From: Chloroflexia bacterium SDU3-3
GTDB lineage: Bacteria > Chloroflexota > Chloroflexia > Chloroflexales > Roseiflexaceae
Assembly (NCBI GenBank): GCA_009268125.1
Contig: WBOU01000003.1
Coordinates: 124,001 to 188,000, forward strand
Length of the DNA stretch: 64,000 nucleotides
Direction of reading: 5' to 3'
Shown here: piece after piece, positions 5,659-43,214 of the stretch
Layout: every line of letters begins with the position of its first letter
Position numbering within the stretch: the first letter of the stretch is position 1
The notes under the pieces: generated by a model
Databases searched by the model: none
Told to the model about the DNA's origin: nothing
The model's input: only the letters and a program-made list of their open reading frames with translations
Made by a program: the position numbers and the translations under genes

Positions 5659-5716
5659 TTTTACCACCAAGACGCCAAGGAACACAAGACCCTATATACC
5701 ACGAAGGCGCAAAAGG
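5659..5716. repeat. Dispersed repeat, 'accaccaagacgcc' / 'accacgaaggcgc' type
   Basis: One copy of each of two related short motifs (accaccaagacgccaagg and accacgaaggcgc) side by side in the 195-base gap after the ATL gene. The same motifs recur at 29325-29480, 29696-29770, 35325-35546, 40419-40500 and 41938-42085, always between genes. Confidence 0.75.
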
Positions 5717-13356: not shown

Positions 13357-13417
13357 TAATACTAGATGATTATCATATAATATTTTATAGATATCATATG
13401 ATAATCATCTAGTATTA
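13357..13417. repeat. Long perfect hairpin between RHS tip 1 and its candidate immunity gene
   Basis: Arms 13357-13378 and 13396-13417 are perfect 22-base reverse complements with a 17-base loop. It begins ten bases after the toxin stop. It is AT-rich and lacks a clear T run in either direction. It could be a transcription attenuator or a processing site. Confidence 0.8.
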
Positions 13418-13426
13418 AATAGATTA

Positions 13427-14347
13427 TCAGGCTACCCCAGTGTTATACCAAGGATTAGGAAATGGCCCTAAAGGTGTATCTATATACTGAGGGTTTCCCA
13501 TATCTCTGACATCTTTTTCCAACTGAGCATCAAAACTTATTCCATTTTTTGATGCCCGGTTGAATCTATCAATATCATCTATAACCCCTGGAATTAAGGA
13601 TAGTACTAACCCAGTTACCCCCATTATAGTACGCCCCTCAAGTAAGTAGCTTCCATTCTTAATAGATGGAGCAACGCCTTTTTCTGGGATAAGTCCTCTT
13701 CTGCGAAGCTGAGATACATTAACACCATTGATGTTATTTATCACCTCTTCGGGCATGCCTGATGGGATTTCACCTGGTTTATTATGCTTATTTATCCATC
13801 CATCCCGACCAGCAACGATACCTACTTCCTGCCCTCTTGGATTAAAGACATGGATTTCAAAGCCGTCTCCGTTATTAAACGCGTCAATACGATAAGACCA
13901 TCCCTTACCTACAGGATCTCCCTTAGGACCTCGAGGCTCATGTCCTGTTGGGTCTCTATATATTATAGGATTATTTTGTACATAGCTATAGCGGTTGAGG
14001 CTCTGCGGGTTGGCTGGTCCACCCCAATACAACTTATCGGCATGAGACTCCTCTGAATTGAGGCTACTCAGCAGGCCCGGCTCCGCAAAGCTCACGGTCA
14101 GCGGCTTCAGCGCCACGCCATCCATGCCGCCGGAGGCGTTCCCCGGCACCACGGTATCCGCGCTGAGAAAGTGGCCGCTCACCGGGTCGTAGTAGCGGGC
14201 ATTATAGTACAGCAGGCCGGTGGTGTCACGCCGCTGGCCGGTGTAGTCCAGCGTGGTCTCGGGCACGTCGCCCGCGCGCACATTGCCCCACGGGTCGAAC
14301 TCCTGCTTGTGCAGCAGCGCGCCGTTCGCGTCGGTCGTCACGCTCAC
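13427..14347 (-). CDS. RHS C-terminal fragment with toxin tip 1 (headless)
   Basis: About 306 readable residues. The first 70 are the end of an RHS core (QEFDPWGNVRAGD, YTGQRRDTTGLLYYNARYYD, DPVSGHFLSADT), followed by a NRYSYVQNNPIIYRDPTGHE boundary motif that normally precedes the variable tip. The roughly 180-residue tip is AT-rich and not recognised. It contains a beta-rich part (EIHVFNPRGQEVGIV, AGRDGWINKHNKPGE) and a hydrophobic helix (MGVTGLVLSLIPGVI). The codon at 14347 is an internal Val of the core, not a true start, and RHS homology continues to about 14373 with a frame disruption. It is therefore a displaced tip that needs recombination with a full RHS gene, or read-through, to be expressed. 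Confidence 0.8.
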   Translation of the reverse strand: MSVTTDANGALLHKQEFDPWGNVRAGDVPETTLDYTGQRRDTTGLLYYNARYYDPVSGHFLSADTVVPGNASGGMDGVALKPLTVSFAEPGLLSSLNSEESHADKLYWGGPANPQSLNRYSYVQNNPIIYRDPTGHEPRGPKGDPVGKGWSYRIDAFNNGDGFEIHVFNPRGQEVGIVAGRDGWINKHNKPGEIPSGMPEEVINNINGVNVSQLRRRGLIPEKGVAPSIKNGSYLLEGRTIMGVTGLVLSLIPGVIDDIDRFNRASKNGISFDAQLEKDVRDMGNPQYIDTPLGPFPNPWYNTGVA

Positions 14348-29324: not shown

Positions 29325-29480
29325 ATACCACGAAGGCGCGAGGGGAGAACCGATTCACTACGAAGGCGCGAAGACACGAACGGGACAAAAGGGAAACCTT
29401 TTACCACCAAGACTCCAAGACTCCAAGAGCACCTTTCACCACGAAGGCGCGAAGACACGAACGGGACAAAAGGGGAAGGA
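29325..29480. repeat. Dispersed 'accacgaaggcgcgaag' repeats
   Basis: Three copies of a motif like accacgaaggcgcgaagac followed by acgaacgggacaaaagg, with one copy of the 'accaccaagactccaag' variant between them. The 800-base gap 29242-30043 has no gene. Open frames in it are read through repeats. Confidence 0.8.
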
Positions 29481-29680: not shown

Positions 29681-29695
29681 GATGGAAGGGACTAC

Positions 29696-29770
29696 TTTCA
29701 CCACGAAGACACAAGGGCACGAAAAAAACGAGAAGATTCTTTACCACCAAGGCTCCAAAGCACCAAGAAA
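29696..29770. repeat. Dispersed 'accacgaaga / accaccaagg' repeats
   Basis: Further degenerate copies of the same short motifs. From here to 30043 I see nothing but repeat remnants, an A-rich stretch and the terminator at 29995. Confidence 0.6.
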
Positions 29771-33132: not shown

Positions 33133-34092
33133 TCAGAGGAACTCGTGCCCAACCTCCAGCGGCTCCCCGGCGCGCGCCAGCGCCCGATCAACCGCAGCCA
33201 GCACATGCCCCACCTCGATCGCGCGCATGCAGCGGCGGTCGTAGGGGCAGTCGTTTTTCTTCCAGCACGGCGCGCACGGCTCGGGCGAGAACAGGTTCTC
33301 GTTGCAGCCGTAGCCGCCCTGCGCGGGGTTCTCGCGCCCGCCCACCACCACCACGCTGCGGCACTCGACGGCGCGGGCCAGGTGCATGGGGAAGCCCGCG
33401 ATGCCGATGAACAGGCGGGCCTGGCTCAGCAGCGCGGCCATCTGGCGCGCGCTGGTCTTGCCGCGCATGTCGATCGCGCCCGGCAGCGGCGTGTCGCTGG
33501 GCATGCCCACCTGCACCAGCGGGTGGCGCTGGGCCAGCGCGGCGGCCACGGCCTGCATGCGCTCGGGCAACCACTCCTTGTTGGCCATGGGGTAGCGCCC
33601 GGCCAGCCCGCTGCTCTGCATCACGATCTGGCCGGGGGCCAGCCGCCCCGCCGCCCGCTCGGCCTCGGCCAGCCGCAGGTAGGGCCGCAGCGCCACCTCG
33701 CCCGCCAGCCCGGCCTGCCTGCACATGGTGGCGATGAAGTGGCCCGGCGGGATGTCGTCGCGGTCCTCCTCGGGCACATAGGTGGCGTAGCGCGGCTCCA
33801 CCACCCGCGCGCCCACCGCCCGCGCCAGCCGCGCCAGCTGGAAGTTGGCTGGCAGCACGGCGTCCACATCGTCGCTGCCCGCAAACAGCTCGGGCGCGCC
33901 GGTGAGCATCCACAGGCCGCGCCCGCCGCGCCGCCGCAGCTCGCGCAGCACCGCCGTGCACATCAGCTGGTCGCCCACGCCGCCCACGAACGAGAGCACC
34001 ACGCGCGGCGGGCCGCTGCGGGCCACGGTGCGGGCGAACAGGCCGAGCGACCCGGCGGCGATCTGGGCGCGCCGCCATGGGCTAGGCGTCAT
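33133..34092 (-). CDS. Glycosyltransferase family 9 (heptosyltransferase-type)
   Basis: 319 residues. GT9 features: VVLSFVGGVGDQLMCTAVLREL opening, IVMQSSGLAGRYPMANKEW, LFIGIAGFPMHLARAVECR (the family's D/G-x-G-x-x-H-L-A region) and a Cys-rich CAPCWKKNDCPYDRRC segment common to heptosyltransferases. With the GmhA/GmhB-like genes it suggests transfer of a heptose. The start overlaps the end of the ABC ATPase gene by 11 bases, so the genes are translationally linked. The exact donor cannot be read from sequence. Confidence 0.88.
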   Translation of the reverse strand: MTPSPWRRAQIAAGSLGLFARTVARSGPPRVVLSFVGGVGDQLMCTAVLRELRRRGGRGLWMLTGAPELFAGSDDVDAVLPANFQLARLARAVGARVVEPRYATYVPEEDRDDIPPGHFIATMCRQAGLAGEVALRPYLRLAEAERAAGRLAPGQIVMQSSGLAGRYPMANKEWLPERMQAVAAALAQRHPLVQVGMPSDTPLPGAIDMRGKTSARQMAALLSQARLFIGIAGFPMHLARAVECRSVVVVGGRENPAQGGYGCNENLFSPEPCAPCWKKNDCPYDRRCMRAIEVGHVLAAVDRALARAGEPLEVGHEFL

Positions 34093-35314
34093 CGGCCCAG
34101 CCCCACGCGCCCGGCGCGCGCACCCCGCCGGTGTCGCGGATGATCGCGCTGGGCGTGCTTGGGCCGGGCAGCACCTCGATCTGCGCGCAGCCGGGCATGT
34201 AGTCCAGCGCGCTATTGTCGCCCGAGCGCGCGCCCACGTCCAGTGCGTAGTGGCCGGGCTGCAGGTCGAGCCGGGCCAATTCGACGGTGGCGCTGCCGCT
34301 GGCCCCGGCGGGCAGATCGCGCCGATCCGCGCCCACGTCGCTGTCCACGCTCAGGATGCGCACGCCATCCAGTGTGGAGAAGCCGAAGCCCAGGGCCACG
34401 CTGTCGCACTCGGCGCTGGTGGTGTACGAGAAGGTGGCGCGCAGCGGCTCGCCGTGCTGGATGACCGCGCCGTCGTTGAAGGTGATGCCGCTCAGCTTCA
34501 TGCGGCGGCCCATGCCGCCGGTGCGCGGGGTCTCGCGCAGGTCGATCCGCACCAGCGCGGGGTCGAACGAGGTCTGCAGGTAGCGGTCGACCACCTCGAA
34601 CACCGGGCCGTCGGCCACCACGCCGCCCCGGTCTAGCCAGATGGCGCGCTGGCACAGGCCACGGATCGCGCCCATGTTGTGGCTGACAAACAGCACAGTG
34701 CGGCCCGCGCGGGCCACGTCGCCCATCTTGCCCAGGCACTTCTTCTGGAAGGTGGCGTCGCCCACGGCCAGCACCTCATCCACGATCAGGATCTCCGGCT
34801 CGAGGTGCGCGGCCACCGCAAAGGCCAGGCGCAGGTACATGCCGCTGGAGTAGTGCTTCACCGGCGTATCGATAAATCGCTCGACCTCGGCGAACTCGAC
34901 GATCTCATCGAACTTGCGGGCGATCTCGCTGCGGTGCATGCCCAGGATGGCCCCGTTCAGGAAGATGTTCTCGCGCCCGCTCAGCTCGGGGTGGAAGCCA
35001 GTGCCCACCTCCAGCAGGGTGCCCACGCGGCCCCGCAGGCGGATGCGCCCCACCGTGGGGCCGGTGATGCGCGAGAGGATCTTGAGCAGGGTCGACTTGC
35101 CCGCCCCGTTCCGCCCGATGATCCCCACCACCTCGCCCCGCCCGATCTGGAAGCTCAGGTCGCGCAGCGCCCAGAACTGGCCCTCCTCGCCGCCGCGCCG
35201 CAGGGGGGCGCGCACCATGTCGGCCAGGGTGTCGCGCAGGGTGCGGTAGCGCGGCCCAGCGCCGCCCACGCGGTACTGCTTGCCAAGCCCCTCGATTGAG
35301 ATCACTGTGTCCAT
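34082..35314 (-). CDS. Polysaccharide ABC exporter ATPase, Wzt type
   Basis: 410 residues. The nucleotide-binding domain (1-250) has Walker A GRNGAGKST (67-75), the shortened signature YSSGMYLRLAF, Walker B ILIVDEVLAVGD and the H-loop FVSHNM. The extra C-terminal domain of about 150 residues (FNDGAVIQHGEPLRATFSY ...) is the Wzt-type beta-sandwich that in known systems reads the terminal sugar or cap of the chain before export. It pairs with the permease at 35550, from which it is separated by a repeat element. The start is the ATG at 35314 with AAGGGA. The in-frame extension to 35329 is unnecessary. Confidence 0.94.
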   Translation of the reverse strand: MDTVISIEGLGKQYRVGGAGPRYRTLRDTLADMVRAPLRRGGEEGQFWALRDLSFQIGRGEVVGIIGRNGAGKSTLLKILSRITGPTVGRIRLRGRVGTLLEVGTGFHPELSGRENIFLNGAILGMHRSEIARKFDEIVEFAEVERFIDTPVKHYSSGMYLRLAFAVAAHLEPEILIVDEVLAVGDATFQKKCLGKMGDVARAGRTVLFVSHNMGAIRGLCQRAIWLDRGGVVADGPVFEVVDRYLQTSFDPALVRIDLRETPRTGGMGRRMKLSGITFNDGAVIQHGEPLRATFSYTTSAECDSVALGFGFSTLDGVRILSVDSDVGADRRDLPAGASGSATVELARLDLQPGHYALDVGARSGDNSALDYMPGCAQIEVLPGPSTPSAIIRDTGGVRAPGAWGWADDA

Positions 35315-35324
35315 AGTTCCCTTA

Positions 35325-35546
35325 ACCACGAAGAGCCTTTTTTACCACCAAGACTCCAAGGCTCCAAGTTTCTTGAGAAAGAGGTTTTGCGCCAAATAGA
35401 GAGCTTTCTCTTTTTTATAGAAACATATCGCCTTATCGAGTCGAGAACTCCAAGTTTTTCTTAAAAATGGATTCTCTGCTGATTTAGCTGTTTCCGGCTT
35501 TATGTCCATGAACCCTTGGTGTCTTGGTGTCTTGGTGGTTAAACGT
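35325..35546. repeat. MITE-like element with inverted 'accaccaagac' ends
   Basis: The left end (about 35339-35370) reads ttttaccaccaagactcc and continues ctccaag. The right end (about 35513-35546) is its inverse, ccttggtgtcttggtg then gtggtt. The core of about 140 bases is AT-rich and has no gene. It is inserted between the wzt-like and wzm-like genes, which otherwise would be adjacent. Confidence 0.65.
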
Positions 35547-35549
35547 CCC

Positions 35550-36428
35550 TCACACCACATCGGCGAAGGTGCGCTCCATGCGGCGGAAGTAGAACGCGCC
35601 GCTGACCAGCAGGGCCAGCGCGGCCAGGCTGGAGACCAGCACCATCGGGCCGGGGCGGGTGTCGGCCCCCAGCAGCGCCCAGCGGAAGCCCTCGACCACG
35701 CCCACCATGGGGTTCAGGGCCAGCAGCGCGCGCCACTGCTCGGGCACCAGGGTGCTGGGGTAGGCCACCGGCGTGGCGAACAGCCACAGCTGGGTGAGGA
35801 AGGGCACCACGTAGCGCACGTCGCGGAACTGCACGTTCAGCGCCGAGAGCCACAGGCCCACGCCCAGCGCCGTAGCCAGCGCCAGCAGCAGCAGCAGCGG
35901 CAGCCACACCACGTTGGGCGTGGGAGCGACGCGGTAGCCCAGCATCATCACCAGCAGCACCGCGAAGGCCAGCGCGAAGTCGACCGCGCCCGAGAGCACG
36001 GTGGCCACCGGGATGGCCAGGCGCGGGAAGTAGACCTTCTTGATCAGGTTCGAGCTGCCGATCAGGCTGTCCGCCGACTGCGCCAGGCCGGTGGCGAAAA
36101 AGCTCCAGGGCACCAGCGCCGCAAACGACCACAGCGGGTAGGGCGCGCCGCCGGTATCGCGGTTGAAGACCTGGCCCAGGAACAGCGTGAACACCAGCAT
36201 GGTGGTGAGCGGCTGCAGGATGGCCCAGGCCGCGCCTAGCACGGTCTGCTTGTAGCGCACCTTGATATCGCGCCAGACCAAGAAGTACATCAGCTCGCGG
36301 TACTGCCAGAGGTCGCGCAGGTTGAGCGCGGCCCAGCCGTGCTGCGGCTCGATCACAATCTCTGGCTCATCCGCTGCTGCGGGGTGCGCGGGCATAGCGT
36401 GGGGCTCTTGTCGTTCCAAAGGCTGCAC
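35550..36428 (-). CDS. Polysaccharide ABC exporter permease, Wzm type (ABC-2)
   Basis: 292 residues, or 281 if the ATG at 36395 is used. The cytoplasmic head with LRDLWQYRELMYFLVWRDIKVRYKQTVLG is diagnostic of ABC-2 O-antigen/teichoic-type permeases. Six membrane helices follow, with LFATPVAYPSTLVPEQWRALLALNPMVGVVEGFRWALLG between the fifth and sixth. With the Wzt-type ATPase it would export a completed lipid-linked glycan across the cytoplasmic membrane. Neither start (GTG at 36428 or ATG at 36395) has a strong ribosome site. Confidence 0.93.
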   Translation of the reverse strand: MQPLERQEPHAMPAHPAAADEPEIVIEPQHGWAALNLRDLWQYRELMYFLVWRDIKVRYKQTVLGAAWAILQPLTTMLVFTLFLGQVFNRDTGGAPYPLWSFAALVPWSFFATGLAQSADSLIGSSNLIKKVYFPRLAIPVATVLSGAVDFALAFAVLLVMMLGYRVAPTPNVVWLPLLLLLALATALGVGLWLSALNVQFRDVRYVVPFLTQLWLFATPVAYPSTLVPEQWRALLALNPMVGVVEGFRWALLGADTRPGPMVLVSSLAALALLVSGAFYFRRMERTFADVV

Positions 36429-40418: not shown

Positions 40419-40754
40419 GACTACCACGAAAACGCGAAGGCACGAGGAGGACGCGAGAAACATCTACCACCAAGACGCCAAGCGCACAAAGGGAAGGAGG
40501 AAAAGTGCGGATGAGGAGATCGCCAGCTTTACCCACCCGGCCCATGCGGCGAAGGTGCCGCTAGCGTTTTGCTCGCCATATGCACGAACACCAGCCGCCA
40601 AGACGCCAAGCGCACAAAGGGAAGGATGAAAAATGTGGATGAGGAGATCGCCAGCTTTACCCACCCGGCCCATGCGGCGAAGGTACCGCTAGCGTTTTGA
40701 TAGCCATATGCACGAACACCAGCCGCCAAGACGCCAAGCGCACAAAGGGAAGGA
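40419..40754. repeat. 128-bp tandem repeat array with dispersed motifs
   Basis: 'accacgaaaacgcgaag' and 'accaccaagacgccaag' motifs open the region. A unit beginning caagacgccaagcgcacaaa then recurs at 40471, 40599 and 40727, a period of 128 bases, carrying the 65-base cacccggcccatgcggcgaa block in each full unit. The 530-base gap 40331-40860 holds no gene. A TATACT at 40792-40797 may be the -10 of the next gene. Confidence 0.85.
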
Positions 40755-40860
40755 TGAAAGCAGCCTAGCGCATCTATCGCGGGCGCTGGGGTATACTGTC
40801 GGACACTGCATTGGGATGCGGGCGAGTAGCTTGCCGCACCTTTATCCGAGGAGAGAGACA

Positions 40861-41928
40861 ATGGACCAACCAATAGAGAGCTACGACGTCGCCATCATCG
40901 GCGCGGGGCCGATCGGCCTTGAGCTGGCCGCCTGCCTGCGCCGCGCGGGCGTGCGCTACATCCAGTTCGACGCCCGCCAGATCGGCCACACCCTCACCTG
41001 GTGGCCGCGCGACACCAGCTTCTTCAGCACCACCGAGCGCCTAGCGATCGCGGGCGTGCCCATCCAGAACAGCCACCAGCAGCGCATCACCGGCGAGGAC
41101 TACCTGGCCTACCTGCGCGGCGTGATCGAGCTGCTCGATCTGCGTGTCAACACCTTCGAGCCGGTCACGGCGCTGGCCCCCGCCGAGGGCGGCTTCGCCA
41201 TCACCACCCAGCCGCTGGCGGGCGAGCGCCACTACCGCGCCCGCCGCGTGGTGCTGGCCATCGGCGACATGCACTACCCCAACCTGCTGGGCATCCCCGG
41301 CGAAGATCTGCCCCATGTCTCGCACTACTTCCGCGACCCGCACGACTACTTCCGGCGGCGCGTGCTGATCGTGGGCGGGCGAAACTCGGCGGTGGAGGCC
41401 GCGCTGCGCTGCTGGCGGGCCGGGGCGGATGTGACTCTGAGCTACCGAGGGGCCAGCTTCGACGAGCGCCGCGTCAAGCACTGGCTGCTGCCCGACATCA
41501 TGGCCCAGATCGAGGCCGGTACGATCAGCTTCCTGCCCCAGACTAGCCCGGTGGAGATCGCGCCCGACCACGTGGTGCTCCAGCCCACAGGCGGCGGCAC
41601 CGCCATCCGTCAGCCCGCCGACGCGGTGCTGCTGGCCACCGGCTTCCATGGCGAGCAGGGCCTGCTGCACATGGCGGGCGTGGCCCTGGAGGGCGAGAAC
41701 CGCGTGCCCACCTACAACCCGGCGACCATGGAGACCAACGTGCCCGGGCTGTATGTGGCGGGCACCGTGGCAGCGGGCGTGCAGCAGCGCTACACCCTGT
41801 TTATCGAGAACAGCCACGAGCACGCGGGCAAGATCGCCCAGGCCATCACCGGGCGCTGGCCCGAGGCGCTAGGCAATGTGCCGGGCCGCAACTACCAGCT
41901 CGGCTTCGAGCAGATCGAGGCCAACTAA
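40861..41928 (+). CDS. YpdA-family FAD/NAD(P) oxidoreductase (putative thiol-disulfide reductase)
   Basis: 355 residues. N-terminal FAD site [20 protein letters not shown] (GxGxxG at 14-19), the YpdA-type segment [18 protein letters not shown], a second Rossmann site [20 protein letters not shown] for NAD(P)H, and a C-terminal FAD contact [16 protein letters not shown]. YpdA enzymes reduce bacillithiol disulfide in Firmicutes. The low-molecular-weight thiol of this organism is not known. The ATG has a GGAGAGAG ribosome site. It stands alone between two repeat arrays. Confidence 0.9.
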
Positions 41929-41937
41929 GGAAAACCA

Positions 41938-42085
41938 ATACCACGAAGGCGCGAAGGGAACCGATTCACCACCAAGACGCCAAGGCTCAAGGAGACAAAA
42001 GAGAAAACCAATACCACGAAGGCGCGAAGGCGCGAAGGGAACCGATTCACCACCAAAACACCAAGACACCAAGGAGGCAAAAAGC
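41938..42085. repeat. Dispersed 'accacgaaggcgcgaag / accaccaagacgcc' repeats
   Basis: Two rounds of the pair accacgaaggcgcgaag...accgattcaccaccaaga separated by about 75 bases, directly after the YpdA-like gene. Confidence 0.8.
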
Positions 42086-42112: not shown

Positions 42113-42838
42113 ACCCACCCGGCCCATGCGGCGAAGGTGCCGCTAGCGTTTTGCTGGCCATATGCACGAACACCAGCCGCCAGGGAAGAGCATTGGAACA
42201 CTCAAAAATTGGAGGTTCAAGGTAGCTGGCCCCTCAACAGGTGTCACTTTCTTGCACAGGGCATTCGGATGCGGCAAATAACAAAAGATGGCGTGCCAAG
42301 CCATGCACGGCACGCCACATTGGGAAACCTTACCCACCCGGCCCATGCGGCGAAGGTGCCGCTAGCGTTTTGCTGGCCATATGCACGAACACCAGCCGCC
42401 AGGGAAGAGCATTGGAACACTCAAAATTGGAGGTTCAAGGTAGCTGGCCCCTCAACAGGTGTCACTTTCTTGCACAGGGCATTCGGATGCGGCAAATAAC
42501 AAAAGATGGCGTGCCAAGCCATGCACGGCACACCACATTGGGAAACCTTACCCACCCGGCCCATGCGGCGAAGGTGCCGCTAGCGTTTTGCTGGCCATAT
42601 GCACGAACACCAGCCGCCAGGGAAGAGCATTGGAACACTCAAAATTGAAGGTTCAAGGTGGCTGGCCCCTCAACAGGTGTCACTTTCTTGCACAGGGCAT
42701 TCGGATGCGGCAAATAACAAAAGATGGCGTGCCAAGCCATGCACGGCACGCCACATTGGGAAACCTTACCCACCCGGCCCATGCGGCGAAGGTGCCGCTA
42801 GCGTTTTGCTGGCCATATGCACGAACACCAGCCGCCAG
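42113..42838. repeat. 218-bp tandem repeat array
   Basis: The block ggcccatgcggcgaaggtgc recurs at 42121, 42340, 42558 and 42776, giving three nearly identical full units of 218-219 bases and a fourth partial unit. Each unit joins the 65-base dispersed block to a roughly 150-base segment (ggaacactcaaaattgg ... gggaaacctta) found only here. Open frames across it repeat with the array and are not credible genes. Confidence 0.9.
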
Positions 42839-42860
42839 GGAACGGCATAGGAACGCTCAA

Positions 42861-42949
42861 AATTGGGGGATCGAAGGGGGCATCGCCCCCTCGCGGGGTT
42901 GCTAGGGGCAGGCCCCTAGCCGCCGCCCGCGCAGGGCATCCACCCACCA
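42861..42949. repeat. Two-hairpin element (copy 2)
   Basis: Near-identical to 29592-29680. Predicted hairpins gggggc-atc-gccccc and ctaggggc-a-ggcccctag. The segment 42950-43214 that follows holds only the 21-bp direct repeat below and AT-rich DNA. Confidence 0.75.
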
Positions 42950-43107: not shown

Positions 43108-43149
43108 ATCACCATCGCCCGAAGCTTAATCACCATCGCCCGAAGCTTA
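43108..43149. repeat. Tandem pair of a 21-bp repeat
   Basis: atcaccatcgcccgaagctt followed by a occurs at 43108-43128 and again at 43129-43149, with atcacc beginning a third copy. Confidence 0.8.
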
Positions 43150-43214
43150 ATCACCGTTTTTAAGAGGCAAAAATACTTTCCCGCAAACCGCATACATCAA
43201 AAAGTCCCGCAAAC

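Follow-up and report, generated by a model that had tools for sequence, protein, structure and literature searches.

What is the small repeat-ended sequence that lies between the wzm and wzt genes of Chloroflexia bacterium SDU3-3, and what provides its ends? The preliminary description of the locus proposed a MITE-like insertion of about 205 bases that splits the two genes, and suggested that a short motif dispersed in the same DNA is the terminal repeat of a small mobile element. Here the locus is considered in the window (the whole 64,000-nucleotide stretch of DNA that was analysed), in the genome, and beside related loci of the class and of many phyla.

The element in the wzm-wzt spacer

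The element measures 204 bp end to end (35340-35543) and is bounded by inverted arms of 29 nt each that are 86% complementary, close to the size and structure first described. The left arm (35340-35368, + strand) is the unit TTTTACCACCAAGACTCCAAGGCTCCAAG, which consists of three 8-bp words, and the right arm (35515-35543, - strand) is the reverse-complement unit TTTAACCACCAAGACACCAAGACACCAAG. Each arm is a single unit of about 28 bp, TTT-ACCACCAAGACNCCAAGNCNCCAAG, in which the three words follow one another with an 8-bp period; the unit consensus of the dispersed copies is TTT followed by ACCACcAAGACgCcAAGgCaCcAAGg. The 146 nt between the arms form the core (35369-35514), to which no strand is assigned. 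Just beyond the left arm, at 35325-35333 (+ strand), there is a partial outer unit, ACCACGAAG, which is of the CGAAG (sister) type. The 162-bp stretch between two matched 17-mers of the element has 40% G+C and open stretches of at most 53 aa. Remnants of a GxxExxY or four-helix-bundle gene within the element are ruled out, because tblastn at E <= 10 found no trace of either protein in 35325-35546. A known RNA family is likewise rejected, as the window has no Rfam match along its whole length. As single-stranded DNA, 35325-35546 is predicted to fold much more stably than its shuffles (z -5.61, 0/200 as good).

Both flanking genes are intact, so the element separates wzm and wzt and does not split them. 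The ABC-2 permease gene wzm (35550-36428, - strand; Pfam PF01061 ABC2_membrane) lies upstream of the insertion in the operon, and the ABC ATPase gene wzt (34082-35314, - strand; PF00005 ABC_tran and Wzt_C PF14524) lies downstream. Their spacer of 235 bp holds both arms, and an in-frame GTG of wzt at 35329 falls within the partial outer unit. The copy would be tolerated because it lies past the stop codon of one gene and ahead of where the next begins.

The junction was compared in nine loci of relatives with a close Wzm (L040-L048). In seven of these, wzm and wzt are near-adjacent, from an overlap to a spacer of about 60 bp, and against these loci the sequence in the window stands as an insertion. 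The two nearest relatives, G010 and G013, which belong to one other genus of the same family, have junctions of 315 and 586 bp that consist of other sequences. In G013 the insert codes for a four-helix-bundle protein (TIGR02436, 91.2 bits; PF05635, 99 bits; L047:735-1154), and its gene sits between inverted arrays of a different word, TTGCAGGT. The junction has thus taken up different array-ended inserts in separate lineages. The 158 genomes of the class include none of the same genus, from which an exact empty site for the window element might have been read.

The dispersed word and the MITE reading

At one mismatch or fewer, ACCACCAAGAC has 12 matches in the window against 0.54 expected. Dispersed copies of the end word include those at 5663-5673 (+ strand), at 29403-29413 (+ strand, with CGAAG-type copies nearby at 29423-29464 and 29685-29726) and at 40466-40476 (+ strand, preceded by a CGAAG-type unit). 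A four-unit array in which CGAAG and CCAAG types alternate occupies 41940-42075 (+ strand). The window also holds longer tandem arrays at 40470-40759 (128-bp unit, 2.3 copies, 96%) and 42113-42866 (218-bp unit, 3.5 copies, 98%). These flank the flavoprotein gene at 40861-41928 (Pyr_redox_3) on either side, both contain ACCCACCCGGCCCATGCGGCGAAGGT, and the 128-bp unit contains CGCCAAGACGCCAAG, which is related to the array word. Two further tandem repeats are an AT-rich 32-bp repeat in 2 copies (13366-13429) and a perfect 21-bp repeat in 2.3 copies (43108-43155).

Over the genome (6,761,922 bp), ACCACCAAGACNCCAAG at two mismatches or fewer occurs at 890 places, whereas the reversed control gives 9; for its sister word ACCACGAAGNCNCGAAG the counts are 1088 and 55. 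The two sets of places overlap because the words differ at only two positions. Contigs C3 and C4 (1,002,852 bp together) carry 290 merged copies, 138 on the + strand and 152 on the - strand. Where consecutive copies within 600 bp have opposite orientations, 31 pairs face inward and 3 outward. Units often follow one another in tandem at spacings of about 30-45 bp, and CCAAG and CGAAG types occur together; the unit boundary is sharp between TTT and ACCAC, and the flanking bases are not conserved. The suggestion that the dispersed motif is the terminal repeat of a small element is thus borne out, in that the motif acts as an element end. The motif is not always solitary or conserved at orthologous positions: inward pairs are common, and the wzm/wzt site varies among relatives.

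By a simple gene caller written for the analysis, 280 of the 290 copies on C3 and C4 are intergenic and 10 lie inside genes, though genes cover 83-84% of these contigs. This distribution and the strong predicted folding would suit inverted pairs that are retained as hairpins, in RNA or DNA, and serve the host as terminators, mRNA-stability or processing sites, or protein-binding sites. Between co-directed genes on C3 and C4, the array word opposes the gene direction in 91 of 128 cases (57 + 34 against 22 + 15), which also points that way. So does the RNase III cleavage of S23-bearing rRNA intervening sequences at their inverted-repeat stem, which is described in the relevant passage of PMC4990558. 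A host hairpin would not need a single polarity, yet inward pairs far outnumber outward ones, and the wzm/wzt pair is absent from most of the relatives' loci examined. We consider this explanation improbable.

The window element resembles MITEs in that it is small, non-coding and inverted at its ends, and its intergenic insertion also suits an ordinary MITE of a transposase-bearing insertion sequence. A MITE family should share its interior, and here most inverted pairs do not have similar cores. The 31 inward-pair cores on C3 and C4, which range from 11 to 452 bp, are mostly unrelated; seven share partial segments pairwise, and the window core matches none of the 30 others. The middle part of the element (positions 72-174 out of 222) has no other match in the genome among the 40 scored of 439 first-look candidates. 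Target duplications gave a mixed result. The best direct match at the ends of 29 clusters averages 3.0 bases against 2.22 in permutations (sd 0.26; 0/200 as high) and reaches 5 bases or more in only two clusters. There is no clear duplication; one of 3-4 bp at the ends is possible, and a long one is not. An element with such ends that carries a gene encodes GxxExxY, not a transposase, and no insertion sequence with these ends occurs among the loci examined. Unlike MITEs, the family has no common core, no clear target duplication and no transposase partner in a search that covered Y1 transposases. A classic MITE is rejected because the copies lack a common core, and the more general MITE explanation is very unlikely. 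The inverted pair, and the insertion relative to the seven relatives' loci, stand.

GxxExxY and four-helix-bundle genes between inverted arrays

The genome has a single GxxExxY gene (TIGR04256, 133.8 bits). It lies between carA and carB, inside inward arrays of the same word: three + units stand to the left of the gene and one - unit to the right. The array at this locus has a period of 8, and the window arms also show an 8-bp period. The right end of this GxxExxY element is the best match of the window element elsewhere (95% over 38 bp, among the 40 of 439 candidates scored). TIGR02436 and PF05635 have no match in this genome. Of the features by which GxxExxY array elements are defined in this analysis, the window element has the inverted arrays of 8-9-bp period; it does not carry the gene and is therefore at most a gene-less member.

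The GxxExxY protein also matches PF13366 (PDDEXK_3). Seven residues are invariant in 23 aligned homologues (G31, E34, Y37, D74, E84, K86, and Q98), and the E, D, ExK, and Q among them are those expected of a PD-(D/E)XK nuclease. The AlphaFold2 model is confident (pLDDT 95.0, pTM 0.87). Foldseek found no solved structure at E <= 0.001 for this model; its best solved match is SSO0001 (4ic1; E 0.011, TM 0.48 by query length), a Cas4 nuclease, and lambda exonuclease is among the next. A sequence search of the PDB gave no match at E <= 1. From the predicted fold and the invariant residues we infer that GxxExxY is a small Cas4/lambda-exonuclease-like PD-(D/E)XK nuclease.

Inverted arrays around such genes are widespread. 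The 300 bp on either side of the gene were compared for inverted similarity, with the 99th percentile of sham sites as the threshold. There were 28 and 27 such sites for the two sets from the class and 576 for the set from many phyla. The threshold is exceeded by 27 of 31 GxxExxY loci of the class, by 57 of 78 from many phyla, and by 24 of 31 TIGR02436 loci. The class loci are those listed for part of the GxxExxY and TIGR02436 matches, and the multi-phylum set comprises 80 of at least 553 confirmed loci, less 2 with short flanks. As a control, the score passed by 57 of 77 GxxExxY loci was applied to other ORFs of the same multi-phylum loci, and 5 of 302 lie above it; this control left out further loci with runs of N. 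The 21 of 78 multi-phylum and 4 of 31 class GxxExxY loci that lack inverted arrays over the threshold count against a helper role of the gene. Direct repeats around the gene are also frequent (15/31 class GxxExxY, 24/78 multi-phylum, and 7/31 TIGR02436 loci), as expected where several arrays cluster, and for GxxExxY they too count against that role. The TIGR02436 four-helix-bundle genes (L047:735-1154, L151-L180), which stand amid inverted arrays of mostly 7-bp words, look like a parallel system.

The array words differ by lineage (for example CACAAAGG, CACAGAGA, CGCAGATTA, CACGGATTA, and CACGAAGGA), and their periods differ by protein family. The arm period is 8 or 9 in 19 of 26 class and 37 of 57 multi-phylum GxxExxY loci, and 7 (or 14) in 22 of 23 TIGR02436 loci, where the lone exception is the G013 insert with a period of 8. 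Compared with shuffles, 15/26, 29/57, and 17/23 arm sets of class GxxExxY, multi-phylum GxxExxY, and TIGR02436, respectively, pass the 95% level for periodicity. In the same order, arms of different loci match each other in 79/299, 70/774, and 22/300 comparisons, because array words resemble each other; for GxxExxY these matches are a further point against the helper role. Array similarity tracks protein similarity over 83 loci (r 0.33, 0/999 permutations), also for pairs below 60% identity (r 0.26, 0/999 permutations), a correlation of which vertical descent of array and protein could be an alternative source.

GxxExxY is present in 54 of the 158 genomes of the class. It occurs in 14 of 14 genomes with at least ten ACCACNAAG arrays and in 40 of the 144 others (p 8.5e-8), and for TIGR02436 the same split gives 11/14 against 81/144 (p 0.16); the cut of ten arrays was set after the counts were known, and the p values here and below ignore relatedness. 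For the CAGAG form, GxxExxY occurs in 12/14 against 42/144 genomes (p 5.1e-5, relatedness uncorrected). TIGR02436 tracks this form too (14/14 against 78/144, p 3.8e-4, also uncorrected), and the genome-level association is therefore not specific for it. A search for the GxxExxY gene in the CAGAG-rich genomes G017 and G046 found none. The single contig of G046 (5.3 Mb) carries 58 CAGAG arrays; 25 of the 27 places listed, in the first half of the contig, are on the + strand. On contigs of other class genomes with at least two places among those listed, neighbours within 600 bp face inward in 33 cases and outward in 5. Most of these inward pairs, among the places listed, are 38-62 bp start to start and form short hairpins.

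Gene placement was also seen to recur between genomes. By eye, 8 of the 31 class GxxExxY loci (L122, L124, L126, L127, L128, L133, L140, and L141) lie just upstream of one gene whose protein starts like ...TTEGGLLPADILD..., a shared position that reflects either a common insertion site or common descent with that operon. Also by eye, GxxExxY lies between apparently the same two genes in L146 and L148, from two Herpetosiphon-like genomes (genus g11), the pattern expected if a resident copy were inherited vertically.

One Roseiflexus site was found in two states. G015 and G019 carry a gene-bearing element at a common site. G019 is identical to Roseiflexus sp. SKYG45 over 3,233 bp, which places the window's family in Roseiflexaceae. 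Contig C540 of G019 lacks 534 bp, including the gene, that contig C167 has, and its flanks match C167 over 140 bp at 100% on the left and 402 bp at 97.5% on the right. What remains on C540 is a bare inverted pair, and the two flank matches overlap by a 26-bp array copy in which the breakpoints lie. G019 is a metagenome bin in which several strains may be combined, and C540 and C167 both end close to the site; by its sequence, the polymorphism would fit an insertion into the array or, equally, a deletion between two directly repeated copies of the array. At this site G017 lacks the gene and has a degenerate inverted pair. In G002 and G012 (also Roseiflexus) there is no array near either of the genes that flank the G015 element; these genes are 5.1 and 1.8 kb apart there, and the loci are therefore not clean empty sites.

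In another explanation, arrays might spread and shrink by recombination, slippage or another enzyme, with GxxExxY and four-helix-bundle genes as passengers that insert into arrays or are kept between them. The mostly unrelated cores of inward pairs would follow from this, as would the persistence of arrays without the gene in G046 and G017. The G019 breakpoints fall within a direct repeat, as recombinational deletion would give, and two protein families occur in similar settings. Passengers would have no need of the family-specific periods, 8-9 bp for GxxExxY and 7 bp for TIGR02436, or of an array sequence that follows the protein sequence. We regard passenger genes as a possible, if doubtful, account.

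A working model and known systems

At about even confidence, we read the window element as a REPIN-like, gene-less (non-autonomous) member of a family that is ended by inverted arrays of two to four 8-9-bp words, with GxxExxY as the candidate helper that would mobilise it. In this model, the GxxExxY protein would recognise the array, or the hairpin formed by an inward pair, and cut there. Repair would then use another array as partner or landing place, and array-bounded DNA would be copied to new intergenic sites. If arrays served both as element ends and as preferred targets, nested units, lone arrays, bare hairpin pairs, and pairs whose cores are unrelated would all follow.

More tentatively, the window element may belong to a class of selfish DNA that has no transposase, occurs in many bacterial phyla and in some archaea, and uses inverted arrays of short words both as its ends and as its preferred targets. 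In this class, GxxExxY (Cas4-like) would serve arrays of 8-9-bp words and the S23/IVP protein those of 7-bp words, and these two systems would have produced both the intervening sequences of rRNA and the unexplained intergenic repeats of 7-8 bp in many genomes. Intergenic arrays of 7-9-bp words have been known in bacterial genomes for decades. We know of no agreed cause for them, and GxxExxY and S23/IVP are common families that have, to our knowledge, no known role. With array and protein linked by family, both acquire a function that can be tested, and the spacers gained by operons such as wzm-wzt and carA-carB would have an explanation. Whether the S23 gene serves the mobility of rRNA intervening sequences becomes testable likewise. 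A search of one open-access collection of papers yielded no link between GxxExxY or the array words and mobility; there, GxxExxY is named in PMC12085832 and PMC8934634, neither of which is about repeats, and the papers that contain the array words concern other topics, judged by their titles.

REPIN/RAYT is the closest working model. Those systems consist of hundreds of short intergenic repeats, as singles, hairpin-forming inward doublets, clusters and tandem arrays, with a single-copy helper gene flanked by repeats, in the passages of PMC3116915 that describe them. The window family likewise has dispersed intergenic repeats, inward doublets and one single-copy candidate helper, a layout that invites the view that its copies are REP/REPIN elements moved by a Y1 (RAYT) transposase. 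The RAYT gene flanked by repeats is missing: no copy of the motif occurs in the 3,354-bp loci (L273 and L274) of the two Y1_Tnp (PF01797) genes of this genome, while the GxxExxY gene has several around it. Membership in REPIN/RAYT is rejected on this ground, and movement by a Y1 transposase is very unlikely. Further differences from REPIN/RAYT are ends made of tandem 8-9-bp words, a candidate helper with a PD-(D/E)XK fold, and cores that vary from pair to pair.

The nearest known gene-bearing element is the S23 (IVP) intervening sequence of 23S rRNA, in which a small protein gene lies between stem-forming inverted repeats; in the same passage, which quotes Ralph and McClelland 1993, mobility based on this ORF is long proposed and never demonstrated (PMC4990558). 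The likeness is direct in G013, where a TIGR02436 gene occupies the same wzm/wzt junction. Those intervening sequences lie within rRNA genes and are cut out of the RNA, whereas the window element has no gene and is placed in the spacer of an operon; the GxxExxY family, too, is unrelated to theirs. The window element does not belong to S23/IVP: it has no ORF and is not in 23S rRNA, and its genome has neither TIGR02436 nor PF05635.

Heptanucleotide repeats such as TAACTGA in Beggiatoaceae and cyanobacteria are intergenic and form mostly oriented arrays, for which a mobile or repeat-binding protein has been suggested (PMC4679880). In the passages on them they are 7-bp direct repeats with no named helper gene. 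The arrays described here, unlike these, are inverted pairs of 8-9-bp words around GxxExxY, and those of 7-bp words surround TIGR02436.
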